DNA of 64,000 nt from Tubiluchus corallicola. Its lineage: Eukaryota > Priapulida > Priapulimorpha > Priapulimorphida > Tubiluchidae. Shown here piece after piece: positions 4,506-34,060 of this stretch. The DNA lies in assembly GCA_030141605.1 (NCBI GenBank), contig JAQGDQ010002371.1, positions 318,547 through 382,546 on the forward strand, in the 5' to 3' direction. The translations under genes and the position numbers were made by a program. The notes beneath the pieces were generated by a model. That model did no database searches and was not told the origin of the DNA. It saw only the letters and a list, made by a program, of their open reading frames with translations. Position 1 is the stretch's first letter. Each line of letters opens with the position of its first letter.

Positions 4506-7024
4506 CAATAGTCTTATTTATTTATTCTTACTCAATATTTATTTTTACTTGAACCTTTGGTTGATATTAACTAAATCTTGAACTATTGTAAATAGAACCA
4601 TATTGCAACAGTTTAAAAAATTCATCACTGAATTAAACATAGATTTATGACTAAAATTTACAATTTGCTCGTGACTAACGAAGCAATTCATTTAGGAAAA
4701 TATTGCACTCATTTGCATAACGTGTACATTCAAAAAAGTAATGTACTTAATTTTCAACGAAACTATTACTAGAACATATTCGGCTATCTGTTATGTTGCG
4801 AGAAAACAAATCAGAATTCAACTGTGTAAATTTCAAAATAAATCTATTTGTTAACATTTCATGTTTTCTGGCTTCATTCTTTTTTACACTGATATTTATT
4901 ATAGGATGTTCCCACTCCTTAGAAACAAGGCCTTTAAAGCAACCTGTTTTTTTACTGTCATAGCAAGAATCGTTCATTACAAGACGATTTTTAATAATTA
5001 TGTAACTAGCATAATCAAAGTTATGTGATATGACGATTAAAATGTGATGATGTAGCGAAAAGTAGTTTATTATATTTCTAATGTAGGCACATCATTCCTC
5101 AAATAGTATACTTATTACCTGCCAGAAAGTATAGTGTTCTGCCTAAGTGTCATTTTAAAAAACTGATATTCTAGTCAAAAATAGCCACAAGTAAACATTT
5201 TCTTAGTCTCTGATTGGCCCGTTCTATCTACTTGTAAATATACTATAAAATGCAAATATATCGATGTTAGTTAACGCTAGTTAAAAATCCTAGCTGAACC
5301 CAATCATTTCTTAGATAGCTCTTAGACCAGGTCTGCCACATCCGGCCAGATACATTCATTCCAAAGTACAAAATTACCATAGTGTTAGAGGTATATGGAC
5401 CTCTCATGTATAGGTTTTATTTGTTAGCTTTGTCTTGTACATTAATTATATTATTAACGTAAATTAATTAATTACGTAATTAAGTAATTATATTAGTTGT
5501 GTTATAACAATGTCGTTATTATCTGTGATAAGTAAGTACTTTTAGTGTGTCGTAACAAACTTGTTTTTCGTTTTCTGCTGCGTCCGTCGCGACTTAGTAA
5601 TTTAGCAAACAACACAACCCCAAGACAACAGATGTTTGCGAGATATTAGCAGATACGTGCCGTAAGAAACTTTCTGCGCACCCCAGGTGTTATGCATTGG
5701 GAATTTTCCCAGACCTGCGTTATTTCTTGGATAAACTCTGTGCTGAAAACATCTACCTCTCTCTTGAAGCAGCTGACTTCTTATTGTAATTGGTGTTCTG
5801 GACTTGATATGGTTGTCTATGAAGAACATATACGGTCTGGATGGATGATGGGTATTGGTAGCCATTTTGTTGAAGTTGTTAGTAAAGTTTATGGGACACA
5901 GCTGTCGTGTGTTGGTGCTAGAACATTATACCTAGTGGACTGTCAAACATTTGTTCGTTATTGGTGCGCAATAAAATTTTCCTTGCAAGTCACACAGCGG
6001 AAGGACGCTGCTTCAATACAGATCAGTTGGCCTACCGTTAACAGTAGTGTAACAGTATATTAATTCGATATAAGCCTGTATCTTTTCTTGTTAAATTTGT
6101 ACTGTTAATTAATAGACTAAAGTGGTTTATCATTCAGCTATAATTCCGTGTAGCTGTTTGAGTTTGAGGTTATTTTATCATGTTACGTGATAACTTGCGG
6201 TGCTAACACGTAATAGGATTGTAGTCCATTTTTGATAGTCTCTGTTTGATTTAGGATGACATTGGATTAAGTTGTATTGTGTTCTTTCCGGTTTTTAACA
6301 GCTGACGAATGTGACATTTTCGTTGGTTTTAGTACTATGTAAAGCAGTATGAAAAAGTTGAGTTTAATGGATTGAATTTGACTTGATGTGCAGTAGAGCG
6401 GTGGTTTAATGTAGATAACATTATTTGCTTTGCTGTTCAATTGGTGTAACTATTATGGTATACTATTGGAATAAAAAATTATGGCGTAGTTTGGAATTGA
6501 GCGTTCTGGTTTTGTGTGGTGATGTTCGGAATATAATAATAATAATAAGACTTACAGATTTCTCTGAATTGTGCCAGAAGGAAACAGATGCCACAGTGCA
6601 ATAATACATTTTTCCTGCCTTGTGAAACGCGCCAAATACTCCCACCTACAAAGTCCAGTGAACTGAAGCCACGTAGCAGGAATAGTAAATTACGAATAGT
6701 AGCTGCTGATAACATAACCAACGACGAGTATCTAATATTAACTAAAACATGTTAACAATGATTTAATAGTCTCAGTTATTTATTTCTCCTTTATTTATAA
6801 TCAGCATGCTGCTGTATACAAAAACAAATAATAAATTTGACTGGATTGAATAAATTTCAGTTTAAATTCATGATGAGTAATATCGTTTTCTAACAAGTTT
6901 TTGAAATTACAAGATTACGTAGTTAAGATAACAACAGAAAGTTTCCTATAAAAACTCTAAAGCTTTGTCCACTCGTACAATCCAATATTGGTACCTACGT
7001 AACCACCTTATCCCTCTTGATCTT
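4506..7024. other. Non-coding stretch, includes 3' flank of the minus-strand gene
   Basis: Overlapping open frames at about 5602-6063 exist on both strands (87 and 123 codons). Neither has a recognisable domain or splice context, so I leave them unassigned. An AATAAA occurs near 5970 on the plus strand. The part from about 6780 to 7024 is the likely 3' UTR of the RNase L-like gene. Confidence 0.45.
6779..6795 (-). promoter_or_regulatory. Candidate polyadenylation signals of the RNase L-like gene
   Basis: Two AATAAA hexamers on the minus strand (6795-6790 and 6784-6779) lie about 230-245 nt past the stop codon at 7025. They are the nearest canonical signals I found, and their use is inferred. 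Confidence 0.45.
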
Positions 7025-8241
7025 TTAGAAAAACATTGAAAAGTGACATTTTGCTCTCCACTGACTAAACCGTAACGTGTTGTACATGTAAATAACGACC
7101 AGAGGAAATCGTGTAGATATGTAACTCTCGGGGTCTCTTATAATCGTTTGTGCCACGCTGCTTAAACCATTGTAGTACTTAATCAGGTTTCTGCCAAATC
7201 GAATGAAATCAGCAAATGTATTCCTATAAGGCATCGTTGTTCCAGGGATTTCTTGCCAGAGGCAGTTGTTTACCATTTGTGTCCAATTTCCACAGGTCGA
7301 CCTAGCAAACGCTTGCTCAAGTTCGAGAGGTACCAGATCTCCACTGCCTTTGCATCGTTTCATTTCTTGACACAACGCCCCGAGAAAGCGATTGCGTTGT
7401 TTAGTAGTCCAGAAATAAGGATGCGCTAGAACTTGTGCTATCGTTGGCCTGTCCATAGGGTTTCGCTGCAACATCCAAATCACCATATCATTGTATTCCG
7501 CATTTATGAACCTCAGAAATGGCGTTCCCGCATTAACATTCGCCTCGCATTCTAAACAATTGCTACCAAATGGATGTTCTCCACCGGTTAGAATAAAGTA
7601 CGAAAGCATTCCTGAGATGAAGACGTCCGATTTTGCACTGTAGTTGGCAACTGGCTCGGCGATTCTAATACATTCCGGGGGCTTCCAGTAGTTACTGTTC
7701 GACCACACTTCGTCTGAAACAGTTGAGTTGTCTGACTGAAGAAAAAGGCTAATTCCAGTGTCTGCCAACCGTAACATACCTGACTCGTCAAGTAGGACAT
7801 TGCTAGGCTTCAAACCACCATGGAGTATAGGACCTGGCTTTTGTGAATGTAGATAACTTACACCTCGGAAAAGCTGGTAAACCAAGATCTTGTTAAAATT
7901 CTCACTGCACGGTTTCTGCCTTATAGCTTGCAAATAGCTATATAAGTTATACTCACACAACTCCATGGGCAAAAAACCTCCTTCTCTGGTTTCCAAAAGA
8001 CCCTAATAAAAAATAAATTATTAAAATTTAGATTAAAATAAAAAACGCGTTAAGATAAAAAAAACTTCTAACGCCACTTCTTACATCTATCTTCAGGATG
8101 TGTTGATCATTTAAGCTCCATAAACGAAATCTGGACACGATGTTTCGAAACTGTTGAAGTTTGTTCTTGCAAATGAACTTCAATGCTAACTCGGTTCCAT
8201 CTTCATTAATGCCAAGCAAAACGCCACCTCCGTCAACTGAT
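7025..8241 (-). CDS. RNase L-like gene, exons 8-9: pseudokinase and KEN ribonuclease-type domain
   Basis: Exon 8 (8241-8085) gives the N-lobe: a degenerate glycine loop (DGGGVLLG) and the ATP-site lysine in ELALKFI (about K1707). Exon 9 (8002-7025) gives the C-lobe and KEN domain. The catalytic loop reads HGGLKPSN (1799-1806), so the HRD aspartate is missing. DFG reads DTG (1819-1821), and W-x-x-P-P-E replaces the APE region. In the KEN part W1978, D2003 and R2009 line up with RNase L W632, D661 and R667. The residue five after the arginine, H672 in RNase L and H910 in human IRE1, is Y2014 (codon TAC at 7177-7175). RNA cleavage is therefore doubtful, while dimerisation or RNA binding could remain. 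Confidence 0.88.
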
Positions 8242-11200
8242 CTAAAAAAAGTTAATTTTTTGCAGCTGTAATGTAACCGTTCCAGAAACTTCCTGAACAT
8301 GTAGTGGTTCGAGATTTGATCTCAAAAAGATGCAGCTCAAAAATTATATTTACCTCTTTCCAATAAAGAACTCATCGGAGTAACAAAATCGTATGGTTCC
8401 CTTCGTGATTAGATCACTGGCATGCATTGAGGCTAACTTTCTAAATTTGTCATTCCAACGCTTGCTACGACTCTTCCAGTTTCCATTGGAAATGCTACCG
8501 TCACAATTGTGCAAGTCTTTCTGAAACAGCATTTCTCCAGGAGTGCTCATCTGTACGCCTTGTCTTTGGCTAGCATGGACCAGGTTATCTACTGCAGGTT
8601 CTGTTGATATACTAATTAAGGAACTAGAGGACATGCAATCAGTATCGTCAAAATCATTTTGTTGAATGTTATTGTACCTGTCACCGTTGTAGGTACTATT
8701 TGGTGGTCTGAGATTTCCTATATTCCATTGTTGCAAATCATACCCACGACCATAACTACTTGTGGCTTGTGACATGGAAAGATTTACATCTGATGCGTGT
8801 GAAACAGCTTCATTAAATCCCACCGAATTTGTGCTGCTAGAAGAAGATGTGAAATTGAATCCATTATCCTGCTGTGCAAATATTTCTGCGGGTGTAGACA
8901 TCTGAGGAAGCACTTGAGCAGTTGGTTTCTGTTTGACTGTTGGACATTCGTTTTTCCTCATTTCAACCACAACGTCAGCATTTTTTGGTAAGTACACCAG
9001 ATGATTCCTATTGGTTGAGGATAAAACACCTGGTTGACGAAATGGTTTTTCTGATTGAGGCACGGTTATAGTTTCCTGCTGAAATTCAATTCCTGGTGGA
9101 GGAATTACCATAGGAGCATTGCCACTGGAAAGTGGCATGTGATTTTTGTTCCAAGGAGGCATTGAACCAGGAAAATTGCTCCAGAGTTGCTGAATAGCAA
9201 CCTGAGGCAGTGTTGGAAAAAAACCAGGGGGTGGGGGCATCCTCCAGTATTGAACAAAAGGCGGTGGTCTAACCATGTGATTAATACCTGGTGGACATGG
9301 GATTTGACATTGGTTACTAAGATTGGGATTGTCATGTGGCACTGTACTGACATTGCATCCCACAGAAGTGGAATTTGAGTTTAGCAATGTTTCCTGCCAG
9401 TTAAAATTACTTTGTGCAGCCAGAGGAACAAGAGACTGGATTATGTTGTGAGAATTACTTTCGGAACATGTAGAACACCATTCTGGCCCAGACGGCAGAT
9501 TCTGAATTTTTGAAGTGCAAGCCTGAAAGCTTTCGGATGGTTTGGATGATAACCCTGCTTCATTGGAAGATGTAGGTGTTGTATCGGCATTTCTAAGAAC
9601 AATTTGACTGCCTGTGTTTTTGTTTGAGCAGTTTTCTTCACTGGTTGATAATTCTGGTGTTCTAACGTGATTTAGTGATGATTCCAACTCCCTATCTATC
9701 TGATCATAATTAAAACTTGAGCTGTCACTCAAATTTTGACTTTCATCACTATTTGTGTTTGTGAGTGATTTCCCAACACTTACAGTTCTTTCTGGAGATT
9801 GAACTGTAGATGTTTGCCCCGAAATATCAGACTCATTTGATTCTACTGAAAAAGATTCATCAGATTGTGTCAAAGGTTGTATTAAGCAAGACTGTGAACG
9901 AGCAGTAACAACTTCTTGAATCCAATTGTTGATCATTCCCCTTTTTATTTCATCTCTAACGGGATCTTTTTCTGGTGAAACAGCCATATTGTTAACTGAA
10001 GAACGAGACAATATGTGTGACTCAGAACTTTTGAAAATTTTCAATAAAGGGCGTGACCAGTGATCATCAAAGCCATCAAGTGTTTTCCATACGTTGGTAA
10101 TATCAGCTTGTGTAATGTTGGCATTATCATTTGCTATGTGAATTACATCAGATTGTATACCCTGGTTCACGTCAGATACGACTGGCATTTGCTGGTTCTC
10201 AAAAACCACTGTTTCTGAGGATTTTGGTGTAATTTCATTTTTTGGCGTGTCGGCTTCCACATGTTCACAGGAAATATTATTATTATTAACACTTATAATT
10301 TCAGTATTTTCTTCATATTTCACAATCCCATTATCTTGCTTGTCCTCTTCCAGTTTTTTTGCTTTTAATTGCCTTGGGAGGAACTCAGCACAATCGTCTT
10401 CAGTACCATTATCATTGTCATTCCACTGAACAACTTCAGATGGCAAATTGATTCTATATGACGTAGTATTTTGATTCACAGGTTCAATTTCATCTTTGTT
10501 GGAGATCAGGTGCAAGGTAAAAATAAAATCCAAACACAAAATTTCTTTTACGTTAGCTAATGTTAGTAATTGGTTACAACTGCATTCCTCATTGTCATGA
10601 TCATGGTCGTTACCGCTTTCATTGTTTTCATTAGTGTTGAATAAGCTTTCCAAAATTGACGTGTCATTACTGCTGCCATCTGTTAAAGGATCGTCGCCTT
10701 CTGATTCATCATTTGCAGTGTAATAACTTTCAGACGTCGATGTTGTAGATGTTGCATTTTCCACAATGACTTTATCAGCATGCTTTTCCTTTCTATCACA
10801 GAGATGATTCGCAAAGTCACTGCTTGTTGTAATCTGTGATGATTCGTTGTTTCTATATGAATTATCGTCAGTGAAATGTTCCTTTTGCTGTAATTCACTG
10901 GAATGGTCTTCCGTCATTGTCTTATTAGTTTCTTCACTGCTGATGTGAACATTCTTATCTGAATTACTTGTAGTTTTTTTAAATGTCTTCTGAGGACTTA
11001 CTGGTGCTGATTTTGCTACACATTTTCCGTTTGGCAAATCCAGTCTTTTTCTTGATGGCACATCATTAACGTCATAGTACATGCCAACTGGTTGTTGCTG
11101 AGTTGTCTGCTCCCAAACGAAGAGTTGCTTGCTTCCATAATCAGAGTGTGTACGGTGTTTGGTAGGCGTTGTTTTGGTTTGAGTTTCTCGTGGCTTGCTT

Positions 11201-14200
11201 GATTCACCCTGCCCTTTTACTCCTGTTTTTGGTTTTATTACATTACCTGGTTTAATTACTTTTGATACTTCATTCTGCGCTTTTTGTGGACTACATGTGC
11301 TCTTGTTATCCTGTGACATAGCTAAAAAGGTAGAAGATGGATGTTTTGCTTCTGCATGTTGCAAAGCAGTTGCGGTTTTCTCTGTAGCAGTCCACTTTAT
11401 GAAATCCTCTATCTCGATTCTGCTTATTTTCACGTTTTTTGGTAGCAGGTAGTCAGAATCTGTAAAAGCAAGCCAAGGGTTTAATTCTTCTTCTGAATTT
11501 TTTATATGCTTTGTCTTTTTCTTTGCTTTTTCCACAACCTCAAATCTATCACCAACATCAACCGGATAAGCAAAACCATGATTTAAACCCTTCGTGTAAT
11601 CATCATAAATAGTTTCATCAGTAGATGATTTGGAATTTTTGTCCTTATCTCCCTTGAGCTTTTTATCTTCCCATAATTTCTCAACCTCAATTGTTCCGTC
11701 TTGGCCATGTTTAAGCTTACATTGAGATTGTTTTGGTTTCTTCTTGATTTTGGACATCTTATCTGTGGCACTGTCTTCGTTATAAGGACTTGTTGTTTCT
11801 GATTTTTTGACATCTGGGGATTTATTTTTTGCCTCAAGCTGATTATGCGGCATTTCGTTTACGTCATCACTGTCTCCTTCATTTCCTAATCTTCCATTCG
11901 ATCTAGTGGAGCTGTAACTGCCATCTAGTTTTTTTGAATTTTCTCGGTGACGTCGCTTTTTTTCACGCTTCCTGGCTTTTCTGGCCTTATCGCGCTCTTC
12001 GGATTTTAATAACTCGTTCTCATGAACAGCAGCCAATTGTTGCTCGACTTCGTTAAACTTTGCTTCAAAGGCTTCCCACAGCCTCTTAATGTGTGCCTTT
12101 TCATCTTCTTTGTGTGAAATGCAATACATTCGTTCAAAAGTCGTAAGAAATGGTTTCAACTTGTGATAGTTGTTCTGGAGCCACTTGAAACCTTCTGGTG
12201 CATCGCAGAGAGCAACTACTATCACGAGGCTGGTCACCAGGACTTGAAGATTTTCCATGTGACCCTTTGAGTATTTTACAGCTACTTTGATAAAAAATTC
12301 CAGTTTAGATTTGTCTATCAGGTAAGATGCAAAACGATTGTCTATCGTATTGTCTTCATTAAGGATCAGCTCTTTGCAGAATGTGCAAGATGCCAGAACA
12401 ATTTCTTCTTGTGTCATGAACCTTTGGATGACCTGTATAGTAGCATCCAGTGTTTCGTATTCATCCATGTGATGTTTTACGTCTGGACTTCTTTTTAAAA
12501 CGGCCGTCAGGCTTGGATAAAGATACTCCGTGTAAAACCGTGAAGCGCTGCGTGCTTTTGGATCTAACATTCTCTCTGTTCTATTCTGAAAATGTAAAGC
12601 TTTATAAGAAACGACTTAGACAAAAAAGTGTGAACTTCTCTTTGAAACTGCAGGCTGAAATGTTGTGGATGCGGATGACCACACTACTTTTCGCCATTCA
12701 CCCAATGCAATATTTCATTTCAAACACACTGCAGCGGAGCCTACTTCTTTGCTTGTAGAAGACCGAAAGCAGCGTAGTGAACGACACTTCAGGCTGCAGT
12801 TCAAAGCAGAGGTTAAGTTTTAATTGACATAACTGTATGGCTTCGTTTGCAAAAGATAGGCAGTCATAGGTCTGATCTGAAATACTGGTGCGCCGTAAAG
12901 CAAGTAGCTCGTACGGAAAATGGAATTTACTACCAAGCAAGGACTATAACAAGTGACCAAGTGTTGAACAAATCAGAACGGATCTTTCTTCACTAGAGAA
13001 AGAAGAAAAGAGAAGGAGAAACATAGCGATGTGCAGCACAGTACCCACAGTTAATTAGTGCTTAAAAATGTATTTTGTTCACTATTTTAAAAACAACTAA
13101 ATGGTATTTGTTTTAGTTATACGTAAAAAACAACTAGCTAGTCCAAAACTGACATCCACTTTTTCATTGTTTTATTTGTTTTTTCGACGCTGCGTCAGGA
13201 AATGATAACCAATTTGAGCATTTTTATGAATTAACCGCATTATTTTTGAAAAGCTAATTAGCTGCTTTTTAGTAATATAGAGACGTGTCTTAAAAGTGAA
13301 AGTTTAATAACCAACAAAATTTCGTTCTTACCTTAATGTAAACTGATATACATGTGTTACAATCTTTTGGACTGCATTTGCATTCTTTCCATAGCGTTTC
13401 CTTCATCTTTGGTACTTTACTGACCAATGCCAGGCAAACAGGGGTAATCCCAGCCTAAAAATATCAGAAACATAAATTGTGTATGCAAAAACTAATTACC
13501 CTTATCAATGACCAACATTCATATATGGCAAATGCAATGGCTACATACGACAAATACACTTTTTTCTCATTTATAGCAAAACATTAAAACAAACAAGCAA
13601 ATGTGCAAACAATTAAACAAACAAATAAACAAACATATATAAACAAATTACAACCACAAATGAAAACAGATTTGGCATCACTTCTGACATTTGGGGCTAG
13701 GCGACCGAGATTTTAGCAGAGCCTCATAGGCTAGGTTAAAGTCTTTGGCCTGTTAATAGCGTTCATTATTGACACAAACGCAAATTATACGTGTAGTAAA
13801 AAAACTTGAAGCCATTGCGTGAGCTTGCGCGTTACAACAAAATTGGTAAGTACTTAGTACTAGTTATTGGTACCTTATTTTCCAGAAGAGCGTTACATTT
13901 AGCTTCAAGTAGCTTAAGCAGTACTGCTGGATAGCCGTTTTCTGCCGCTAGATGGAGTGCGGAATTACCATCGGCGTACCGCTGCAAGTTTTTAAATTTG
14001 TTCACATTGGGTCGTTTAAGAAGAAAATCAACACAGCTTTCCCAGCCTCTTTCAGCAGCTATAATGAGTACTGTTTCACCTAGCTAAAGCAAAATGTATG
14101 ATTCAGAATTGTAGCTTGGTTGCTAACACATAGGTTTTCGTATCGACGTAAACAATTGTTTGCAAGGTCTTGCTACATAATTACTGTTTATTTGTTTGCA

Positions 14201-17200
14201 ACCTTACCAAGCAAGAATAGCATAAGGAAATTTAAACAAAACAAACGCCCTGCTATTCATCATGCACTATTAAAAATTAATGAACAGCTAATAAATATTC
14301 GCGCTGGTGACTCAGCTAAAAGAGCCCATTTATAGCTAGTGCGGAAATGGCGCGCTGTCACTAAAACAATGAATTATTAACAAAAAGCGACTACATAAAT
14401 TATATTTTGCAAATGCATGAGTGCAGAACTTTTCGTGAGTGACTGTACGTAAGCCATACAGGAAAACATAGGAAACTGTGGTAGTACGTCGACGATTATG
14501 GTGCCTTGACGATCTGCTCTTTTTGAATTACATGTAGTTAGTAGTGAAAATTTGTCCAATAATTAAAAATACTTTGTGTTATCCGAATATACTTTAAACA
14601 TTCATTTACGCTCTTGCTTTTAATTGTCGAAATGTCTGATAATAACTTTTTGCTTCACTTCTTTGCCGAAGTCTTATTTCTTTGATTTCACTTCCCCTTT
14701 GCAGCACATGCTAAAACAAAGCCCGTTTCCTTACTTAGACTTTTTTATTCAGTTTAGCACTCTGCAAGCCAGGATCCAGCATTCATTGACAGATCTTACT
14801 TAATGTAGCTGCCGTGGTAAGACCAGAACCTATTTTATTGTGAAGGGTAATTCTCTAAGATATCTTTGTCAACATTGGTTCTACATATAATACGTCCTGC
14901 TTCAACAAAACAAATGATTCATGGGCAGCGTTGTAGATGAGACCGCCCAAAGGCAGTATTTCAGGTAGTCACGCACTTAGTTGCCGACCAAAATCAACGC
15001 CAAACACACGGGCAATTCTCCCTCAAAACACAACAGTGATTATTACACACACAGTAATCAATAAACAAATCCGCATGTTATCAGTAGTATCACTTTACAA
15101 GTGTATGATAAATGCTTGTGAAACTGAATCCATAACCTCTTATATGACAAGCACATCCGATATTACCATATAAGAAACTCTGGCCCATACACGAAAACAG
15201 TCCATTTATGGCATTCTAGTCCTATAATCTTAATTTTTTGTTTCTTTATATTAGTTCATAAAAACTGACGTCGATGGTAAATCACTATTTAATAAAAGAG
15301 AAGATAAAAGAAAAGATTAAAGTTTATTAAATACCACAACTAAATACGATGCAACAGGGTTGCTCTCTTTTCTCGTTCGCCTGCCAATATCGTGTCTGCC
15401 AATATAGCCTGCTAATTCGCCTGCCAATAATCTAACCCATCAACATGAGCAATAGTGCTGCCCAGCATGCGTGCAACAATAGCAAAGCATATATTTCAAA
15501 GGTAGAGATGATGTTGTACCTTGGTTAGATATCAAAGGTGAAACGATGGCAAATTAAAAAAAAACAATTATGCTAGGATGGAAGTCAACCGATATACCTA
15601 AAACGGAACCTGGGTATTGAAGACTTGAATATCCTTCACTTGTGGGTAATACTTTCTTTCATTGCCTGACACCTAGAACTTTTTTATTGAAACATGTAAT
15701 AATACTTCGAATTTGATAGCTAGTTCTAGGAATGGAATTACGGGAATGGTTTACCTTATTAGCGTAGCTAAAATCAATGTGGGGTTCATGGTTAATCAGC
15801 AGTGAAAAATTGGCCGCATTTCCATTCTTTGTAGCCATCATGATCGCGTTGGAACCATCCTATAAAATGGAAAAAATGAAAAAAAACATTCTAGTAACAA
15901 ATTTCATGTTAATTAAAAGAAATTTGTTGACTAACCAATAAAAATACGTGCTCGAGCAACTGTGTTACATAAAGGCCGAACAAAAGCGTGGACAGATAAG
16001 CGAACAATTAATTTCACAAAAACAAATCTATAAAGAAATTAACTAATGCATTAATGAACGATCGACAAATAAATGATTAAAGAATTAACAATAGACAGAA
16101 CATAACTCGCATAAACAATTGATAGAATGGCTAAACTTAAACAGCAAACAAATTAAAAAGTGAACCGACAAATCGCTGCCCAGCAGATGTTCCATTAAGA
16201 AGGTGAAAAAGTATACGAAAGCAAGAGTTGGGCAAACTATCAAATGAAAAAAGGATAGACACAGACAGAAAAAAATGGCTAGACAAATATTCAAATTTCT
16301 TTTGCTGCCAAAATTAACTTACCAAAGACGTGGCATTTACGTCAGCTCCAGCTTTCAGCAATCTCTCAGTGATTTCTGGCCAGCTGTGTTTGCAAGAAAC
16401 CAGTAAGGCTGTGGCTCCATCCTGTAATAAAATTTTGCAATATCTCTTGACTTTTTCGATAAAACTATTCAGCAGACACGTAGCCAGGGGGGAGCCTGAA
16501 AACTTCCCCTTCACTGAATTTAAAAAAAATTATGAATGTTTTGTTTCCTAGTTGTCCGATGGATCGTATTAAACAATTGAAGAATTAACGAATAAACAAC
16601 ATTTGATTTAATGTGCTAACATTTTTATTTGTTATGTGTATTTTCTCTTTCAAATGCTTTTTGTGGTTAAACTTTTAAAATACTATTTATATGCTTCTTT
16701 CGCGAGAGCTTCTGAAAGCATGTGACAAACAACAGTTTCCTAAATTATGTTTACTGTTGACAATAGGTGTTGTCATTCCAGTGTCTATAAGCACACCAGA
16801 AAGAACTTTCTCTGACTTACCTGTGCCTTATTTTCCGCGCCAATTTTCCTGTGCTATTTTTACCTGTACCATTCGTTTTTGTCTCAAAAAATTTGCTTAG
16901 CTTGAGTGCAACATTGAGTTAAAGATTTACGTTGCGTACTTCACTTTACTCAAGGCGTACCAACCTATGTTAACCCGCGTAGCTTGCGTGGTATAGTTTC
17001 AAATGTTTTACTCAAGACACTAAATTTGAATCATCTTTAAAAATTTGTCACTATTGAACACATAATTTACGACAAGCAGTTATGAAATCTAGTTAATGAC
17101 CGTAACTTGTTATGTGTGCCACAAAATTATTTATAAGAAAAAGTAACTCAAAATAAATTTATATCTCTTGCGTAATTATGTAACTTTCGCAACATAAACT

Positions 17201-19539
17201 AAATAGTATAGAAGTTCAAACAGTAGCTCAGTTTTTATAGCACGCATAAATTCATAACAATAACAAATAAAGTTATCGTTCTTACAGTTAATTTTTATGC
17301 CATTCTTTACTTATTTGTAGTAGATCCTACATGCACTTGGCGCGAAATTTGGTACGGAATTACGGTACGATATTTTATCGTACTAGTACGATACGATTCG
17401 ATTTTGTAGGTCCGGCACGGAATTATGGTACGGTATTTTTTAGAGGTACGAAGTGCGGTATTTTTCGTACCGTACCGTGCCGTACTGCCAGCCATGCCCA
17501 CATGTACCTGAACAAAGACGAAATAGACATTGAAAATGTAATACAGGGGTTTGCAGACCTCAAAAAGGCACATTATTTTATAAGTTACAGTTACAAATAA
17601 TTTTGTAATTTATTCTATTGTAATTACGATGAACTTTAAGTAAACTCTACCTTTAATAAAAATTGAAAACAAAACTTTACTTTTAATTATACATGGCGAA
17701 CCCAATTTGTTTACGAGGTATGGGAGTGCAAACTGTATTAGACTACACAGTACATCTATTAGTGACTACCTCATTCCCACTCCCATGGACTGAGCTCCGA
17801 AATTCAATTTAAGCATTGGACCAGATAGGTGTTACTGCCTCATTAAAGGGTGAGTACTACCTCTCGCAATGACCTAGGTAAATTGATAGATAAAACCACA
17901 GCTTGATGACCTGTAGAAGCGTTTTTCTCAGTTGGCCACAGATTGACGGGCCGATTTGTCAGCCAAGCGAAAACCTCGAGCAGTGGCCAGTGAATGGATA
18001 GGAGGCGCCGATACAATATTCCTGCTGAGGAATTTATCTGTCATACTGCTTATGAATATTCAAATAAAAGTCTTAGTAAACTGCTCAGCCTTTTCTATTT
18101 AGAATAACCTTAAAATTGCAATGTCAAGCAAACAGGTGATTTTTATATTAGTTTGTTAACAAAGTCGATGTTAATATCTTAATACATGAGCTTAGTGACC
18201 AAGATTAAGCAAAATCATGGTTGGAGACTATTAACACCACCGCGTTCTGTGCGATTGTATTCAAACTGTTTTCCTCTTAGAGGGACGATGCATTCACATC
18301 CGAATATGCAAAAATCATACCGGCATAGTATTACAGCTTAGAATATTAGAACCGATAGTGATAATTGATAATTCCGCCATCACCATCCACATTAAGTAGG
18401 CGCTAGCATTGAGTATTGTAGACCAGCTTGAAAGTGCCAAACTGTATAAAAATCAACTGTTAGCTGAAAGAATGCAGTTTACGGTAGCAACATGTTTAGA
18501 GATACGAAGGGTCTACTTACGTCATTGAAGCTAGCGTTGACGCAACTCTTATCTTCTATGAGCTTTTCTACAGCTTTTACGTGGCCGACAGAAGCAGCGA
18601 CTAATAATGTTGGATACGGAAAATCCTGCAAAATAAAAGAAATAAGAAAGCATGTCCGGGATTTCGCAAATTCACGGAGAGAACGTCGTTACGGTTCATT
18701 AAGTAACAAAAGATTCGTTATGGAACAGTATTATGTATCAAAGTAATACAGGGGTTGGTCTTGGTCTGTGGGTAGGCCCTGAAGACCAGACCCCAGATAG
18801 ACCAGCCGTAGACCACAGACAGACCAACCAGATCTGTGACAAATGAGATTTCAGATAAATCAGAAACCCCAGACTGATCAGCCACAAATTACACTACAGA
18901 TATATTAGATTTCAAACAGATCAGTAAAATCAACCACATACCAGACCTCTGTCGACCTTATAAGGACGTTATATTTTTAACAGCAACAACAACAACAAGA
19001 ATAAACAACGGCTTCTACTAAAGTATAAAAACACCGTTGATTTGAAATTTGCAAACAGGATTAACCAAAATGTAAGACGACTGAGAGACATGTAGTGCAG
19101 TTGATATCAAGAAACTTTTTCGATGTTTAGTAGATGAGTGTTCATACACACTATAACTGTACAAAAATCACACGCTCAATAATTTTACTTTTTACGACAA
19201 TTGTGGTTAAACGTACCCAAGGGAAAAAAGCTAAGGGTTAGAGCTAATATTAACACACTTGGCTATGACAGACCAAGATAATAATATTTATCTGACCTAT
19301 CATAACAAAAAAACTAGCTGCTATAGCTACAAGTTACTGCGTTTCACAAGAATTACCAAATTTTCAAAAGAAATAGTTCCTCTAGGGTCCAGTCGGTTTT
19401 CTTTCATTAATTCATCTAGGGCTAATCGAACATTCTCGGCTGTCACATCTACTTCTTTCTTATCCTTCTTCTTGCGAGTTCCGCATTCAGCGTCTTCAGC
19501 TTTCACTACAGGTGAGTTTTTTCTTTTTATTTCAGTCAT
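7025..19539 (-). CDS. RNase L-like protein: ankyrin repeats, giant linker, pseudokinase, KEN domain
   Basis: Nine exons join in frame: 19539-19357, 18625-18521, 16421-16323, 15859-15755, 14083-13874, 13454-13332, 12585-8354, 8241-8085 and 8002-7025, giving 2,063 residues. All junctions are GT-AG. Domains are six ankyrin repeats (about 62-275), a linker (276-1685), a kinase-like fold (about 1680-1935) and a KEN domain (about 1940-2060). In vertebrates this order occurs in RNase L (741 residues, nine ankyrin repeats), which is activated by 2-5A and cleaves RNA. IRE1 shares only the kinase-KEN part. The KEN segment is closer to RNase L than to IRE1 (W-T-x-x-V-N-x-C, IRFGRNL, RDPxxY, FPLVVIYMY). 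Here HRD reads HGG and the catalytic KEN histidine reads tyrosine, so both activities may be lost. The start is the first ATG of the most upstream exon found; a further 5' exon is possible. Confidence 0.88.
8354..12585 (-). CDS. RNase L-like gene, exon 7: 4,232-nt linker exon
   Basis: This single exon encodes residues 276-1686 without a stop. The first 190 residues or so look folded and helical (hydrophobic heptad-like, few Ser/Asn). A strongly basic stretch follows at about 473-494 (KARKREKKRRHRE), a likely nuclear signal or RNA-binding patch. The rest is mostly disordered: rich in Ser, Asn, Thr, Glu and Asp, with Pro-rich patches at about 1371-1451 (PPPP, PPPGIE). A short motif QMSTP-x-E occurs twice, at about residues 1504 and 1621. 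The exon ends FFIGK in phase 2, at the start of the kinase-like fold. The donor is GTAAAT. I recognise no known domain in the linker. Confidence 0.85.
13332..18625 (-). CDS. RNase L-like gene, exons 2-6: ankyrin repeat block
   Basis: Exons are 18625-18521 (35 codons), 16421-16323 (33), 15859-15755 (35), 14083-13874 (70) and 13454-13332 (41). All start and end in phase 0, and most begin D-G-x-T or similar. Each of the shorter ones encodes one repeat and the 70-codon exon encodes two. Typical ankyrin marks are visible: LLVAASVGHVKAVEKLI, ATALLV-x-C, LLKAGADVN, and ALHLAAENGYPAVLLKLLE. The last repeat (residues 235-275) is degenerate and Cys/Lys-rich. In RNase L the ankyrin repeats bind 2-5A; whether these bind it cannot be told here. 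Confidence 0.88.
16818..16872. repeat. Iterated CCTGTGCCATTTTT-type motif, partial MITE end
   Basis: Variants of CCTGTGC(C)ATTTTTAC recur about every 16 bases here, inside an intron of the RNase L-like gene. They match the right-end repeats of the MITE-like element at 26545-27338, so this is probably a fragment of the same family. Confidence 0.55.
17331..17505. repeat. TACGGTACG-rich quasi-palindromic repeat
   Basis: The motif GGTACGG and its relatives recur in both orientations across about 170 bp, for example TCGTACTAGTACGA and CGTACCGTACCG. The segment can fold on itself. The open frames on both strands (Tyr-Arg-Thr-rich) are by-products. It lies in an intron of the RNase L-like gene and is probably a non-autonomous element end or a palindromic satellite piece. 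Confidence 0.7.
17900..18060 (+). pseudogene. Possible hAT transposase C-terminal remnant
   Basis: The plus strand reads PVEAFFSVGHRLTGR, reminiscent of the C-terminal dimerisation motif of hAT transposases (P-x-E-R-x-F-S, then R). A stop follows after about 27 codons. The essential arginine after the glutamate is replaced, and the piece is short, so the call is weak. Confidence 0.3.
18748..18950. repeat. Degenerate CAGACC/GATCAG repeat tract
   Basis: CCAGAC, TAGACCA and CAGATC variants recur across about 200 bp of intron just upstream of exon 2 of the RNase L-like gene. No coding frame is present. It looks like an old tandem or low-complexity repeat. Confidence 0.5.
19357..19539 (-). CDS. 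RNase L-like gene, exon 1 (N-terminal lysine-rich leader)
   Basis: This exon gives 61 codons from ATG to a GTAATT donor and ends in phase 0, matching the next exon. The peptide is charged, with a basic cluster TRKKKDKK at about residues 21-28. It ends in RGTISFENL and has no signal peptide or membrane segment. The basic cluster could be a nuclear localisation signal, but that is inference. Confidence 0.7.
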
Positions 19540-22103
19540 TGCATTTACATTGAAGGTAAAAATTGAAACGTTTGTTTCTCTGCTCTGCTAAGAAGCGCGC
19601 TTACAAAGTTAAAACGTTCTTAAAAATAATTATTCTAAAACGCACGCGTTCAAACTTCTGTAGAAAAGCTTGGTTGTTTCTAGGGGAAGATTTGATGTGT
19701 TTTTCTTTGTGATGTAAGCAAATTGGGGTGCTGAGGTAGAATTTCCATTTTCAGAAGCAAAAGGCTATTAAAGAAGCGTTGCTTCTTTTAATTCAATAAT
19801 AAATTGCCTCACGTAGTAACGTCTATTTTTATGCAAATCGCCCCCTAAAAAGATTAGTGCGTAAAGGGGCTACGTACGCCAGCTCCTAAAAACATAGAAC
19901 TACAAGTAATTTGTTTGTGGTACATTTGCTAACGTTCTTTTTAAAGGCGTGAAATAACAATGTTCTGGTAATTCTAAAATTACCAGACGAAAAATGATAG
20001 ATGTACCAGCTGCTACTGATCTGCGTTTTGCATAAGATAAAATATGATGGCGATAAAAGGTTTAAGTAACAAAAACAGCAAATTTTATCACCTATAATTA
20101 TGCTGTCACTGTGCCTGTACAGTTTTTTGGTTCAGTTGTCACGTATAATGACAAAAATCGCTGTATTAGCACAATTGCATATATTTAGTATAAGCCTATA
20201 ACAAATTTTAAAGCACAAGATTATAAAAATACGGAAACTAAAAAAAATTCATGGGGTCATCGGAGACAGTGTTTATAGTGAGCTTCCATTTTACAGTTTT
20301 CTGAAATGCAGGCTGGCTGTTCGTCTAACAAAACTTCTTCCAAAATCTTCAACACTAATTCAAGCGTCACTTAAGCTTGAAAAAATATCGGATAGATTGG
20401 GACACTCGTAGATTCCTGGAAGATGTTGGCTTCTAGGAAATCTAAATAATCCCTTATATAATACCTACCGGGAAAATCGTTGGAGGAAGAAGAAACGCAG
20501 TTTATCCTAGTCTTCATCCATATATTTATTAAATGAGACTAGCTCTGTTTAACTTAAGCCTTTAAGCTGGCTATCATTACCACGTATACTCAGATATTTT
20601 CTGACTTTGAAATAAATATATCGTGGGAGACAGAATTAAAATTTAGAATAGCAAAAACCGTTCAAAAACATTTTATGCGCGAACGATGAACTATACAAGT
20701 AATGTGGTTATTGATTACATTCCATGTGCATAATTTCTCATTATCCCCTCGCAACAAAATTGCATGAGAGGATATAGTAATGCCCTCTGTTTGTAGCTGT
20801 CTGTCCATCCAAGTGTGCGTCCGTTATTCCGCCATTTGCTTTGTGGACAAATTTCAAGCCAAATCCATAAGCAAGCCGTCGACTTTAATTGGGGTCTCAG
20901 TGTCAAAGGTCAGAGTCACAGGATCTATTGCACATAATAGTACGACGGTTCGTTGGGAGGAGATGGTCGCTTTGCGGTCCATGTTTACTTTGCTGTATTG
21001 TTGAGAGAAGCCATTTGCTGACCATTGTAGAAATGTAGAAACGTTTTCAAAAGTAGCGTTTTGTAATAAGCCATAGAAATCTCTCCAAGAAACCCGTACT
21101 TACAATTTCGCAAAATATATTTGAGCAAAATTTTGAAAACGTCGGTTGGCTGAGATCACTAAAACGTCGGCAGCGGGAAGTAAGCTAATTAATAGTGTCT
21201 TATTCAGTATATGTGCAGTCAATAATTCATTCAAAAATATATTATATTATTATTATTATATTAAAATTATTAATACAAATTAATTAATAACAATATTTAT
21301 TCATTAATAGTTTGCCATTCAGTTAGCTGGTCACCCATCAATAAGCAGCCAGTAACTGACATTTCTGGCATAAAAAGTAATAAAAAGGCCAAAGATTCAC
21401 AGTAATTTAGTACTTAGCATTCTGTTACCTTAAAATGTTTGTGCTTTCCCTATAATTATTAATTATGGCATAAACTTATGCTCTTACACTTTGTCAAATT
21501 TTTTTATAGCATTGCCTATAGATCTAATGTATTTGGCCTTGCATATTTCATTCAGTGAAAGCCTCCATGAATATAAAAAAAATATGTACCTCTTAGTTAT
21601 TAAAGCAGTTTCCTGAGGCAGTCAAAATATTTCATCTGGTAAATACTACAAGATTTACTAGTGCACAAACACAGACACACAAATATATTCATTTATTTCT
21701 TCCTACTATAACAAATCACAAATTAAAGAAATACCTAAACCTCAAATTGAAGCAAAAAGCAGACACCTTTTATTTAAATCAACACTGTTTAGCATATCAG
21801 AATATTTTAATGCTAATTAGTCAACAATATACAAGTCTATGTTATTAGCTTAATTTTATAGTAGACTTTACTTGAATTGTACATACGACTAGAAACATTA
21901 AAACAGACCCAGTGAATTGTTACTCGTTGGTAAATTAAAAGAGCCACTAAACAATTATAAGAGCAAGTATTTCAATGATAAAATTATTTCTACACTATAA
22001 ATGCAAATATGATGCATACAGCAAAACCACAGTACAAGATTATGCAAGAATGTAAAAATGTCTAGTTATCACAGTTTTCTTTATCTTTCCAATGTTTGAT
22101 TAT
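19540..22103. other. Intergenic region between RNase L-like and EFHC genes
   Basis: About 2.5 kb separates the minus-strand EFHC stop from the start codon of the RNase L-like gene on the same strand. It should hold the RNase L-like promoter and the EFHC 3' UTR. No coding exon was recognised. An AATAAA on the minus strand at 21774-21769, about 330 nt past the EFHC stop, is a candidate polyadenylation signal. Confidence 0.5.
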
Positions 22104-25300: not shown

Positions 25301-28300
25301 TAATAATAATAATAATAATAATGCATTCTTAAATCAGGGAAATCAAAATCTCGCTAGATACACTTATAATGGTAATATGGATAGCTTAGTTAAAACACGT
25401 GAATTTTTCATATGAAAAATATATGTACAGAGCTGTTATTCAAAGAAATGAAAATTGTGATGGTTGTAAATGTTTGTAAATTGAGAATGGCTTGTTTTGT
25501 GTACAGATATACAAATAATTTACTACCAAATACCTTCCAGTAATTTCGAATAGAGATTGATGTTCTTATAAAACAAAACTGCTAAACGATTGTCATTTTC
25601 ATAAATGTAGAACTAATGTAAAATTACAATTGCTGATGTGTAGACAAATTATGCAAGGAATAGAAAACTATTAATATTAATCAAGTTACTATGGTCTAGT
25701 CCCTAGGCCATTTCTTACCCTAGAAAAATTGTTTATTTTTGTTGACTTTTTTCAGCAATAGACCTGGATTTTAATGTGTATCAAATAAAAGCCCTGTTAG
25801 ATAGTTCTATCTTGGGCAAATATGGTAAAATGTGATAAATAGATAGCATACAAAACAACAAATTCTATTGTTAATGCATTAGAAGAACATGCATTCCTGC
25901 TTCGTAATGGTATTATGTAGCACACATCTACCTTCTTCACTACACGTTTCTCTTGTCCGATGATCTTCTCTCTATCTATTGGTGTAAAATCTGAGATGTC
26001 AAAATGTGCTTTATAAAAATCACGAGTATATGCATCGCAGTCACAAATCAAGAACCTAGTTAGGAAATATAATTTATGCCATTAAAAGAAGATTTCATTA
26101 CGTTGTTCATTAAGTTATAGTAGTTCATTAATTATAGTTTCTCTGATGTATGCATGTAACTACTTATATTAGATCATATCGTAGCGATGATCTAAGCAAT
26201 ATGATTGCAACAATAATTATTATTGTGCAGGTCTTCATTAAAACCCTTTCAAAACTGCTCAACCAAAATGGTTACACGTAGCATTTTAAGAAAAAAAAAG
26301 AAAAGTGCGCACATACACAAACTTTCAATATACCAGGACATTCTCATTAACTTTAAAAACCCTTACTCAAAAAAAGACAGCTGGAGGTGTGGTTGTGTGT
26401 GGAAGTTTTAAAAATGCTGACATTACATTAGTGCATTTAGTCCTGAAGACACAACCCACACCTTTAAATCAAAAAAGTCATGTATGGATTCACAACCATC
26501 CACCTTTAAATAGTTAGTGCAAAAAAGCCGGCCACTAACGAATGTAGGTAAAAATGGCAACAGAAAAAATGGCACGGTAAAAATGGCACAGAATGAAAAT
26601 CACACAGGAAAAAATGGCACACTTAGTAAAGTATGCGCTTAGGGTTAGGGTTACAGTGGGGATAATTATTTTAGTTATTTTTACCTCTGCCAAAGAAGTT
26701 ACTTTCAACACAGTTTGTTTGTTTGTTTGTCTGTTTATTTGGTTGTCTTTTGTCTGTTATGGTAATAAAAATATTACACAAAAACTATCTGACAGTTTTC
26801 CAAGAAACTCTGTGAACAAAAGTGGGCATAGGGTACTGAAGTTGGAATCTTTTCGTCGGTTCTTTTTTCTCAAAGCTTGACCGAACACCATATACAAAAA
26901 AACATTTGTGGAGTGCTTCATGGGGTCTTGGAGGGAGTGTTTAGTACTTCTTTTTTGTTATCTCCACTGGACACACAACTACGAGTTAGTTCCAGCTGCA
27001 TTTTGAAAAATTCTGTCTTGTAAAACTGTGTACCACACTGCACCAGAAAGTCACTTTCACACTGCACACTGTCTATACCATTGGCTTATTAGTGTGTATA
27101 GGCTTATAAGGTAATTTGGTATGTATATATTTGTCAGTCTATTACCATCGCCAAAATTAATGGTGAAAAGTTGGATAAACACCATGTGGAACACTCGTGC
27201 ATTATTGACTATAAATCCATTTAATGAAAATTTTTTCCTGTTCCATTTTTACCTGAGCTATTTTTTCCTGCACCATTTTTTCCTGTGCCATTTTTACTGT
27301 GCCATTTTTACCCATGCCATTTTTACCGCATATTGGGTACTAACTAATGACTATCTCGTTAAGTCTTTAAGAAGGAAGTTTCAGAAAAGGTGACAAAATA
27401 ATAAACATTCTAGAAGATGATAGTGAACACTTTTCTGAAAAGACTAACTGTTTCACGTCATTTTTTATTTTTCCTGATACTTTACAGGAACCATTATGAG
27501 GTTATAGGCCATATATAAACACATTATTTCATTTAACCTCCAAAAGCATAATTACTTTCTGCCATAAATGACAAGAGAGTCCCCAATGCGAAAATCTTTT
27601 GGTGTGTACCACTCAGAAATGTCACTATCTGTCACCTCCATTGCTATGGTGGGAAACAATGCTGTAATTAGAATAAAGAAGTACATCAAAAACAAAAATT
27701 AGACACTGGTAATTAGTAATTTTAAGAAAACACTGAGATGTTTAAGCAACAAGTATTGGCTTACATGGAAGTTTTCCTCTGTTTTTTGCAAGTTTTTGCC
27801 TTCGCATCAGAACTGGAAAAGGGTCCCTTCCATTATTTGCTGAATGTTGTTCTCTAATTTCTACTGTGTCATCAACTAAATAGTACTAAATAGAAAAGAA
27901 CAATAAATAAGAAACAAGTAAAATTATATTAAATGACATTAAATGAATGCCCACTAGTCCAAAGCAATTTTTGTTAAATCAAGATGCATTACATAGACAA
28001 AAACAACAAAATTTCTCTTGAATTTAATTAGGTACTACCTTACAGAACTATCACATGCATGCAACATTTTTTAATTAAGCTATATTGAAACTTATTAACT
28101 TACATGAAGAACACAAGGTCGTACTTCGCCAAACATGCTATCCCTATCATCCCAAACACAATAAAATCGTAAAACTTTTCTATCCAATTCCAGAAACTGA
28201 CGAGTTTTATCAAATGTTGAGGGTGTTTTGTAGTTAGCAATAGCAGTTCTCTTTGCACGTGCTGTTGTATATGGATCATCTGGGATCAGTTCAGGATCAT

Positions 28301-31300
28301 TGAGTTCAATGCCCTCACTTGCCATGAATTCCTGCAAAAGCCGCACTAATAAAATGGAATAGTAGACAACTTTTTACAGGTTTGCTTAATTAGTGTAAAC
28401 TAAAGACAGACGATTCACTAATGATTGAGTATAAATGGAGAATCAGCGAGTCTCTGTGAGGTCTTAAAATGAATAAGATTAATTGTTCAAACTCCTACAT
28501 AATACAAGATGCTCCCACATGGAGTAGGCAGTTGAGAGTGTAATGACAAACCACTTACAGAGCAGCAAAGATTTCCTAAAACGAGAGAGATTTATGGGGT
28601 GGCTTGCAGCCTGTCAATGAAGTTCAAACTACAGAGTCTGTGAGCGCATCCAGTGAAATTCGCGGGGTCAAAGCCTAGACTGCGAATGCGTTTTTATGCC
28701 ATTCAGAAAATTTTGGAAGATTTAGGTACTCTTATAACTTATAAATTTTTACAGATCATCTGAAAATGTCCAAGTATAATTTTAAATTTTATGACAAAGT
28801 CCTCAAACCCTAGACTTTAGGTTTTAGAAATTTCTAACACCAACAAAAAGCCAAAATCTTCGTAAGGCATCAGTGAGTAGCGTGGAGGGCTTCTTGACCT
28901 TGCAAAAAGCATTGATCTAATGACTGACAATGATAATAAAGTTTCCTTGTGTGACTAATTATTAGTGATTATTAGTTATAATGTAAAGTTACACGAATTT
29001 TTATTTTTGTATTGCATTTCTGGATCACAATTTCACAAATCTTAAATATGCTAACATTTATCATATCATATTAACTATCGTACTTCTGCTCACATATAAC
29101 AATTTCTGATCATATTACATTGCCATAATCACTTAAATGCACATTCAACAACTCTATGAAATGACACTTTCAGTAGCTGATGTTTGAAACCTACAAGTCT
29201 CAAAAAAAATCTCCAAGATCATTGCAGGCTTTTGCTTGTTTTTATAAATTGACAAAATAAGAAGTCTGCATAAAATTTCCATGATTTGTGAACAAAAAAA
29301 GTTATTATTTTAACAGATGTATCAAAATAATCCTATTTCATGTGTTCGTCAAGATTTACAAATGGTGGCAAACCCATTAATCAGAATTGAAGGTTTTAGC
29401 TACATTAGCCAGTGCTCAAATTGAGGGTGTATGGGGGTATACAATGTGTATATTATTGAAAAAGTAAATGCAAGCAAAATTGAGTGCGAGTAGAACACAC
29501 AATAAGACAAAATGAAAATGATAAATGAATGGTTATCAATTACCCATAAAAATTACCAATGAACTATTGCTCAGATTTTAGATTTTTAGGTTTAGAAAAT
29601 AACTTTTATTATATTTGTTGACCAAAACATGTAGCGAAAATGAGTTATAAAATAAGCGGAAAACTTTCTTACGAATACTCCCACATACCTTTCGGCTCAA
29701 AATACCCTTAAATGGTGTAAAATGCATTAACAACCGAAGCACTGCCACAAACTCTGCTGGGGAGACCCTATGCAGAGATCGGAAAACTCGGGCAAAGTGA
29801 CAATTTTTTTAATTTTAATCAAGTTTGCTTATTCAAGTTCGCTTATTCTATTAACATTTTAAATGTGAGAGAATAACATGCTGGCCAGCAGAGCGGGATA
29901 ACACTTGCAAATGTGGATGGCACACACACCGAATTGGGGTGTCTTGGTACATAGAAACTTACATGTTAAAATGTACAAGAAAATCAATGGTTTTCACATA
30001 GACAATCCCTAATGCTGTATCTCCAGTAAAATGTGAAACAGCTGCAAAATCCTGCAATTTCAGACATGAAGATTTTACCAGACACAGATGAAACATGATG
30101 GAGTTAGGAAAGCACAGAAAGAGAGGAATCGGGCAAAATACCTTTGTCCAACCATCGCAGTCAACAATATGAAACACTTTCCCATAAAAGACGACATTAA
30201 TGCCAACATTAAAGTCTTTCCAGTGCCATGGAGTGCCGTCATCTAGTTTTGGAATTTTTTGTCGTTTTAACAACTTGCCCTGAAAATAAAACATTTGAAT
30301 GTTGATGTAGTGGAAGTTCAGGGCAAATGAACAGAAAGGTGATTTTTGTAATGTAAGGATCAGGAATAGTGTAACCTAACTACGTAAGAGCAAGCTTAAC
30401 CCATTTACATTGAGGGCAATGTCTCTCTGCACCAATGTTAATTGAAAGTTCTTCCCTTAAATTTTCAGAACACTTCTCAGCTGGTTTAATTTTAGGAGTT
30501 TAAGATGACAAATCTCGGGACTCCACTCTAGCAACTGCTGCAATACACAGATTGGCAGTGCATGCAAAGCCAACCCTACCCAGCCCATTCCCGCAAAATG
30601 TTGCTCACTGACAGCAACTACAACATAAAATCTTCGACAATCCAAAAAAGCACAAAAATGCATACATGTTTAGTAGCAATTTGTTAATTATTCCAATAAT
30701 TGTTATAAACTTACCAGACTACCAGAAAATGCTAAGCAAATCACTTCAAAGAAGGATTCATTTATTTCATTTAAAAATATTAAGATTTTGTATGAAAGAT
30801 TAAACATTGTTACCCTTTGACCAAAATGCTAGGCGCTAACAAAAAAAGACAATGGATGTACAAACGTGTTGTAAACTTATAGTTTTTTCATATACTGCAA
30901 TAAAATTAGTTCATATGAAATTTATACATGATCAATCTAAGACTAAAGTCAGCAACAATATGGGTTTAAATGACATAAGGTACCCCAGCTATACTTTGTG
31001 AAAGGGTTCATCTCATATTCAATCTGATCCAGCAGCATATTTTTCTAAGTCTTTTTTTTGGTTTGGAGAAATAAATCTGACTCATTCTAACCTTTCCAGC
31101 CATTACATGTTGCACAATCATAAAATTCCTGTTTTATTGATAAACAAGCAGAATTAAAGCTAGTGCGGATGGAAAAAAGAATAAAAATAATACTAAGAAT
31201 GTGCACTTGATTTTGATTCTCACAGTATAGTTCAATACATTCTCCAGCTATGTTTGTGAGTAACCTTTGTCAGCTTGTCAGTTGAAAATATAAAAGAAGC

Positions 31301-33065: not shown

Positions 33066-33459
33066 GGTCGTCTTACTTTAGCTTATTGTCCTAAATTCCA
33101 CGTGTTTCTTTATCAAATTTTGCAAATTTACAATTTTTGTCAAATTTTAAGTATAAAAGTGTGCAAACAGCACTGCGACAACAGAATATTACTTTAGCTC
33201 TGTTGCCAATGACGCGTTTCTGTGTTTGTATAATTGACGTATGCTGGAACTCGGTGCGCATGCTCAATAGATTTTAGCAGGCGGGTTGCCTTTGCTAGTT
33301 TGCCATAGTTAATGCTGGTGCAAGCGACCAAGCGTTAGGCTGACAAGTTTAACAGGTTGCAAAAGCATAACCGTGTCGGCAATGGACGGATTGATGTTTT
33401 GATATCATGTTCATAGAGAAAAATCGCTGTTTAATTCCAATGAGAGTTTTTGTGATAAA
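33066..33459. promoter_or_regulatory. Shared divergent promoter region of EFHC and PHLPP-type genes
   Basis: The two start codons face away from each other with 394 bp between them, so both 5' UTRs and promoters must fit here unless far upstream non-coding exons exist. I saw no clear TATA box placed for either gene. Some GC-richer patches lie near 33200-33320 (for example GACGCG and GGCGGG). Confidence 0.65.
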
Positions 33460-33472
33460 ATGGATCGAATAG
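33440..33472 (+). other. Short uORF overlapping the PHLPP-type start codon
   Basis: An ATG at 33440 opens a 10-codon frame ending in TAG at 33470-33472. It overlaps the main ATG at 33460 in another frame. If the transcript starts upstream of it, the uORF would compete for initiation. The main ATG has the stronger context (AAAATGG). Confidence 0.5.
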
Positions 33473-34060
33473 AGAAAGACAGCATTAGATCACAGTATTC
33501 TATGCTCAGTTATAAAGTGCGCTCGGGTCAGAACTGGTGGAAAGAGTTTATGGGCGAAAAGGGTATCGACTCTGTTTCTCGTAGCTCAAGTAGCAGATCA
33601 CCAGAAAGTCGCAATATAGGACAAATAGAAGATGATATTGATAACTGGGAAATAAGTGAAAATTATGAGAAAGATAGGTCTCCTACGAGTAGTAGCAGTT
33701 CTTCGTTTTCTCGAACACATTCACAAGGTACTGAGCGCCAGTTTGAGGCTGAACATTGGCTGGGAGACACCAACCATGGTTATATCCGTGTTTATGATCC
33801 AGACACAAGCGTTTTGAAGTCTCGTTGTATACCGTGTTCACTGAGTACGACGGCACATCAGATTTGTCTAAAACTTAACGCATTGTCAAATGCTCTGCAC
33901 ATTCAGTACAATGGCGGGACCATTAAACGGTTAGAGCCGTATGACCACCCCCTTGCTCTTCAAAATGAATATCTGACGAGACTTGGTTATACCGACATTT
34001 GTAGGATACAAGAGGTTGGACAAAGCAAAGAACTAGGCTACTTAATTCGATTTTATGTTG
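33460..34060 (+). CDS. PHLPP: PHLPP-type exon 1: Ser-rich leader and RA-like domain
   Basis: This exon runs 601 nt from ATG to a GTAGGT donor in phase 1. It has two Ser-rich runs (SRSSSSRS and SPTSSSSSS). It then has the RA-like domain with HGYIRVYDPD, ICLKLNAL, a Leu-rich middle and LIRFYVG at the end, the last Gly being completed by exon 2. Reading on past the donor meets a stop after about ten codons, which supports splicing here. Confidence 0.85.

Follow-up and report, generated by a model that had tools for sequence, protein, structure and literature searches.

In the 64,000-nucleotide window analyzed here (positions 318,547 to 382,546 of contig JAQGDQ010002371.1 of Tubiluchus corallicola), a gene on the minus strand is predicted to encode ankyrin repeats, a pseudokinase, and a KEN domain in the order known from vertebrate RNase L, the 2',5'-oligoadenylate (2-5A)-dependent ribonuclease (PDB 4OAU and 4O1O). 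We read it, with a probability of roughly 0.55, as an RNase L-type gene of a protostome, present in a single copy, whose KEN domain would work without cutting RNA. The catalytic histidine of KEN is a tyrosine here, which suggests that the protein probably does not cut RNA and functions instead as a switch or as a scaffold that binds RNA.

When spliced, the nine predicted exons (window positions 19539 to 7025, minus strand) give a continuous frame of 2,063 residues with a single stop, at 7025. All eight introns are GT-AG and keep the frame, seven of them in phase 0 and intron 7 in phase 2. An earlier note on this DNA had described such a nine-exon gene, and its coordinates and length proved exact. 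Pfam searches of the spliced pieces placed the three families that it had anticipated above their curated cut-offs, as follows: Ank_2 (E value of 6e-44), Pkinase (5.9e-30), and Ribonuc_2-5A, the KEN model (1.4e-7; 32.1 bits, with a cut-off of 23.3). Exon 9 by itself retrieved both Pkinase (1.1e-26) and Ribonuc_2-5A (9e-8). On the predicted splice form, the Pfam matches follow the order that had been proposed, with ankyrin repeats (six, counted by eye) before the kinase fold and KEN at the end. The layout of IRE1 was not found, as ankyrin and low-complexity exons precede the kinase and HGG stands at the HRD position; no transmembrane predictor was run. A structure prediction of exon 9 alone gave a mean predicted local distance difference test score of 33.5, and that model was not used.

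Affinity of the KEN domain

Alignment and trees were built on six sequences: this gene, human and pig RNase L, and the IRE1s of human, of yeast, and of the host genome itself. The host's own IRE1 (L001:1-1914) presents the HRD, DFG, and RNKKHH motifs, a kinase, a KEN domain, and a membrane-like stretch recognized by eye, within one open frame of 922 codons, and apparently has no intron in the part made up of the membrane-like stretch, kinase, and KEN.

The KEN domain of the gene is 28.9% identical to that of human RNase L and 25.6% to that of pig RNase L, the closest among the sequences compared, whereas the values are 19.0% for the own IRE1, 17.3% for human IRE1, and 20.0% for yeast IRE1. Relative to all three IRE1s, this gene and RNase L also have in common a gap of three residues. 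When searched alone against the PDB with E values up to 10, KEN matched two distinct sequences, both of them RNase L (human, 1.9e-4; pig, 4.7e-4).

The three IRE1s form one group in the KEN tree, with a support of 99. The approximately unbiased (AU) test rejects placement of the gene with the own IRE1 (0.0022), with animal IRE1 (0.022), and with yeast IRE1 (0.022), and the Shimodaira-Hasegawa (SH) test also rejects the first of these (0.017). Nesting of the gene within RNase L, with the human sequence as its sister, is rejected by AU (0.029) but not by SH (0.275). For the C-terminal lobe (C-lobe) of the kinase taken together with KEN, the AU values are 0.0016 for the own IRE1, 0.0087 for animal IRE1, 0.0086 for yeast IRE1, and 1.3e-7 for a place inside RNase L, and the C-lobe alone still rejects the own IRE1 (AU, 0.047). 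Simulations do not blame long-branch attraction for the KEN margin of 11.95 log units: it was reached in 0 of 60 cases in each of three sets (60 KEN alignments simulated on each of two IRE1 placements and 60 permutations of the gene's KEN; largest value, 3.0), all of which retain the alignment built from the real sequences.

As judged from the sequences compared, the KEN domain appears to side with RNase L rather than with IRE1, the SH tests and the kinase part being less clear. The same preference had been put forward in the earlier note from RNase L-like signatures, and the grouping that it had named as fatal to its proposal, a KEN tree with the gene inside IRE1, is rejected by the AU test with six sequences, SH not being decisive.

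Several observations weigh against our reading of the gene as an RNase L relative with a noncutting KEN. The SH test does not exclude placement with animal or yeast IRE1, either for KEN (0.088) or for C-lobe plus KEN (0.148), and for the C-lobe alone neither animal IRE1 (AU, 0.089) nor yeast IRE1 (0.30) is excluded, in trees of only six sequences. Among the best 60 of 1,631 PDB matches to C-lobe plus KEN, yeast IRE1 comes first (1e-19), and other IRE1s as well as some ordinary kinases, such as PLK4 (5.7e-17), outscore human RNase L (1.3e-13); this likeness to IRE1 weighs against a simple RNase L label. The best PDB matches of the ankyrin block are generic ankyrins, with RNase L not among the best 60 of 423. 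Moreover, the noncatalytic function rests on one residue, and the whole case on the genome sequence of one species and a predicted splice form.

One alternative is convergence, in which a duplicate of the IRE1 kinase-KEN unit acquired its ankyrin repeats by a fusion separate from that in RNase L, and its KEN has merely diverged. It would fit the identity of the kinase C-lobe, which leans to IRE1 (yeast, 31.4%; human, 27.3%; own, 26.2%) over RNase L (human, 25.2%; pig, 24.1%), and a C-lobe tree that is undecided among RNase L, animal IRE1, and yeast IRE1. Set against KEN identity, the shared gap, the AU test, and the simulations, convergence is doubtful. IRE1, the own one included, resembles the gene in kinase C-lobe and KEN; it differs in its membrane-like stretch, its HRD, DFG, and RNKKHH motifs, and a KEN only 17 to 20% identical.

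Exon 7, copy number, and host genome

Between the ankyrin block and the kinase lies an exon of approximately 1,410 codons, which sets the gene apart from RNase L. It is contained in an open frame of 1,421 codons, while the longest frame across 20 shuffles of the window has 174. The exon begins with a helical region of about 200 residues (12585-11929) and continues as a low-complexity stretch rich in Ser, Asn, and Thr. For the start, structure prediction produced a helical model scoring 61.3, too weak in our judgment to justify a fold search, and comparison with the PDB gave weak matches only (E values of 0.018 and 4.4). No Pfam family exceeds its cut-off in exon 7, the match to Folliculin at its start (0.0078) being below it, and a genome search with the helical start returned no match except the six copies of this gene described below.

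Another alternative is that two adjacent genes were read as one, an ankyrin gene ending with exon 6 and a linker-pseudokinase-KEN gene starting from an ATG within exon 7. An in-frame methionine lies close to the start of exon 7 (MLDPK), and AATAAA/ATTAAA signals occur in intron 6 (13308, 13176, and 12824). Such signals say little, because they are also present in introns 2 and 4 (12 in all) and exon 7 contains seven of them; the other five introns have none. Two genes are unlikely, given that all parts are on the same strand, that the introns among exons 1 to 7 are all GT-AG and in phase 0, the one from exon 6 to 7 included, and that the joined product has the domain order of RNase L.

Genome searches covered an assembly of 343.5 Mb in 2,344 contigs. 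The KEN model matches seven places, which are one IRE1 (contig C2087) and six copies of the ankyrin-kinase-KEN gene (contigs C1752, C1831, C1974, C2072, C2074, and C2107). The six copies are identical over 3,297 bp, and one-kilobase probes from three places spread over 60 kb were identical in the five other contigs in 15 of 15 comparisons. An expansion of the gene was considered and rejected, as identity at every stretch compared points to redundant contigs of one locus. The gene is therefore read as single-copy, one locus assembled several times, and copy numbers derived from this assembly may be misleading.

Judging by a bantam microRNA, the genome appears to be that of a protostome, in keeping with the invertebrate host assumed at the outset. 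The bantam match scores 55.9 bits, below the Rfam gathering score of 61, and its mature sequence fits what we take to be that of bantam. There is also one let-7 match, with miR-100-like and miR-125-like sequences in the same 3-kb locus. Bantam is not known outside protostomes, nor let-7 outside bilaterians. A search for COX1 returned no hit, and the Hox loci, of which 6 of 40 matches were inspected, were not decisive as to the phylum.

Catalytic residues, trigger, and mode of action

The catalytic histidine of RNase L, H672, corresponds to tyrosine 2014 (codon TAC) in this gene, whose KEN motif reads RNLIKYY where the three IRE1s have RNKKHH or RNKYHH. A survey of HEPN domains describes the KEN histidine and arginine as needed for activity, the histidine being shown essential by mutation, and the Rx4-6H motif as one that about 95% of KEN domains retain; some HEPN domains without the motif probably bind RNA without cutting it (PMC3710099). 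With the essential histidine lost, an RNase activity like that of RNase L is not supported. That KEN still cuts RNA, as a working RNase with another trigger in which tyrosine 2014 or a neighboring residue stands in for the histidine, is improbable: although the Trp of CGNWT, the Tyr of PYRNT, an Asp, R2009, and N2010, which we take to be active-site positions, are all retained in the alignment with RNase L, the 127-residue KEN stretch contains no Rx4-6H motif and a sole histidine near its C terminus, and the solved human RNase L chain carries at H672 an Asn that is presumably the change made to inactivate it.

The kinase fold has HGG in place of HRD, with loss of the catalytic aspartate (RNase L has HQD at this position), and DTG in place of DFG. 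It retains the nucleotide-holding residues, namely, the beta-3 lysine K1707, the loop Asn of KPSN, and the DFG aspartate D1819, and as a putative pseudokinase it may bind nucleotide. RNase L itself has been characterized as a kinase without activity; it binds ATP, and a role as a dimer scaffold is assumed (PMC4718504). Neither the KEN tyrosine nor the HGG motif had been remarked on in the earlier note.

The ankyrin block was compared with the 2-5A pocket of RNase L at W60, N65, Q68, K89, F126, E131, and Y135, among which we take N65, Q68, and Y135 to be further pocket residues. In an ungapped test of four repeat registers against these seven sites, the pocket was not conserved, as 0 of 28 cells were identical and the sole like-for-like change was a Tyr for W60. 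When gaps are allowed, the six repeats align best with later repeats of RNase L, with a score of 115 against a maximum of 50 in 200 shuffles, a score whose weight is limited by the general resemblance of ankyrin repeats to each other. W60, K89, F126, and E131 are named for 2-5A binding in one report, which also mentions an only partial effect of E131A in mouse and nine repeats (ANK R1 to R9) in RNase L (PMC5927464), compared with six here. An exon-by-exon search of the genome with the OAS1_C model and with human OAS1, run without a positive control, gave no OAS match. The gene had initially been proposed as an RNase L relative with a different trigger and role; the unconserved pocket and the OAS search are consistent with a different trigger, and the part that lacks support is an RNase action like that of RNase L.

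For a pseudokinase-KEN protein that does not cut RNA, the ankyrin block would bind some partner or ligand that is not 2-5A, and ATP in the pseudokinase would favor the pairing of two pseudokinase-KEN units. KEN could then serve as a dimerization interface or an RNA-binding surface, and the long low-complexity exon may recruit other proteins.

The surrounding window and the origin of RNase L

The coordinates of the gene's features are collected in the table. A Pfam search of the open frame containing exon 1 (19330-19587) retrieved no family at E values up to 1.

Table. Features of the ankyrin-pseudokinase-KEN gene, in window coordinates
Feature	Position	Strand	Description
Exon 1	19357..19539	-	Residues 1-61, charged start; ATG at 19539
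Exon 2	18521..18625	-	Ankyrin repeat 1; Ank_2 match on spliced exons 1-6; repeat borders by eye
Exon 3	16323..16421	-	Ankyrin repeat 2; spliced exons 1-6 match Ank_2
Exon 4	15755..15859	-	Ankyrin repeat 3; Ank_2 on spliced exons; repeat borders by eye
Exon 5	13874..14083	-	Ankyrin repeats 4 and 5; Pfam Ank, 3.4e-11, on open frame 13832-14083
Exon 6	13332..13454	-	Degenerate ankyrin-like repeat 6 and Cys-rich tail (by eye)
Exon 7	8354..12585	-	4,232 bp, 1,410 codons; helical start, Ser/Asn/Thr-rich linker, kinase N-lobe beginning at its end
Exon 8	8085..8241	-	Kinase N-lobe with beta-3 lysine K1707
Exon 9	7025..8002	-	Kinase C-lobe (HGG for HRD, DTG for DFG) and KEN; stop at 7025
Codon TAC, tyrosine 2014	7175..7177	-	Position of RNase L catalytic H672; same in all six genome copies
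Two polyadenylation-like AATAAA signals	6779..6795	-	3' of the stop; such signals found elsewhere too in this AT-rich stretch

Elsewhere in the window, an open frame at 33403-34089 (plus strand) encodes a PHLPP-type RA domain (Pfam RA_3, E value of 9.7e-22), and a weak leucine-rich-repeat frame, below the cut-off and 11 kb beyond it (45632-45967, plus strand), perhaps belongs to the same PHLPP gene. Two DM10 domain pieces on the minus strand (28098-28373 and 29962-30375; E values of 2.8e-8 and 4.1e-11) are likely exons of a ciliary gene that, we infer, is of the EFHC type. A weak reverse-transcriptase match at 37085-37354 (plus strand; RVT_1, 0.0023, below the cut-off) is perhaps a decayed retroelement. 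Two tandem arrays with periods of 14 to 15 and 29 bp lie about 600 bp apart at 26546-27327, and by eye their units look like mutual reverse complements.

Several published accounts bear on the novelty of the gene and on the history of the family. An RNase L homologue of Nematostella is named among the genes of a response to double-stranded RNA or poly(I:C) (PMC8476169); as an invertebrate gene named for RNase L, this homologue counts against novelty. One survey covered 12 "lower" animals (four sponges plus eight more, including an oyster, a limpet, a brachiopod, and an acorn worm); it reports OAS and no RNase L and concludes that the pathway is absent there (PMC6307210), and Aplysia is reported to be without OAS and RNase L (PMC9334734). 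A table of HEPN architectures lists KEN with kinase, plus ankyrin repeats in some eukaryotes (PMC3710099). No description of a protostome ankyrin-kinase-KEN gene was found among the papers listed in searches of the open-licence part of PubMed Central, and similar genes of invertebrates may already bear automatically assigned names in databases. In scans that reach close relatives only, viral contigs gave no match, and none of the five prokaryotic stretches that fit a peptide pattern encodes a relative.

It is possible, and we propose it tentatively, that the ankyrin-pseudokinase-KEN protein predates the split between protostomes and vertebrates, so that RNase L would not have been born in vertebrates. 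Cutting and the 2-5A pocket would then have been lost here, or the pocket never had, and the protein would survive as a pseudo-RNase, that is, a nucleotide-gated switch that binds RNA or dimerizes. A protostome gene with the domain order of RNase L and a KEN leaning to RNase L suggests that surveys such as that of the 12 animals can miss relatives of RNase L, and it opens the question of how RNase L originated to testing. Should the enzyme prove inactive, the RNase L family would have a natural pseudo-RNase, separating the scaffold role from the cutting role.

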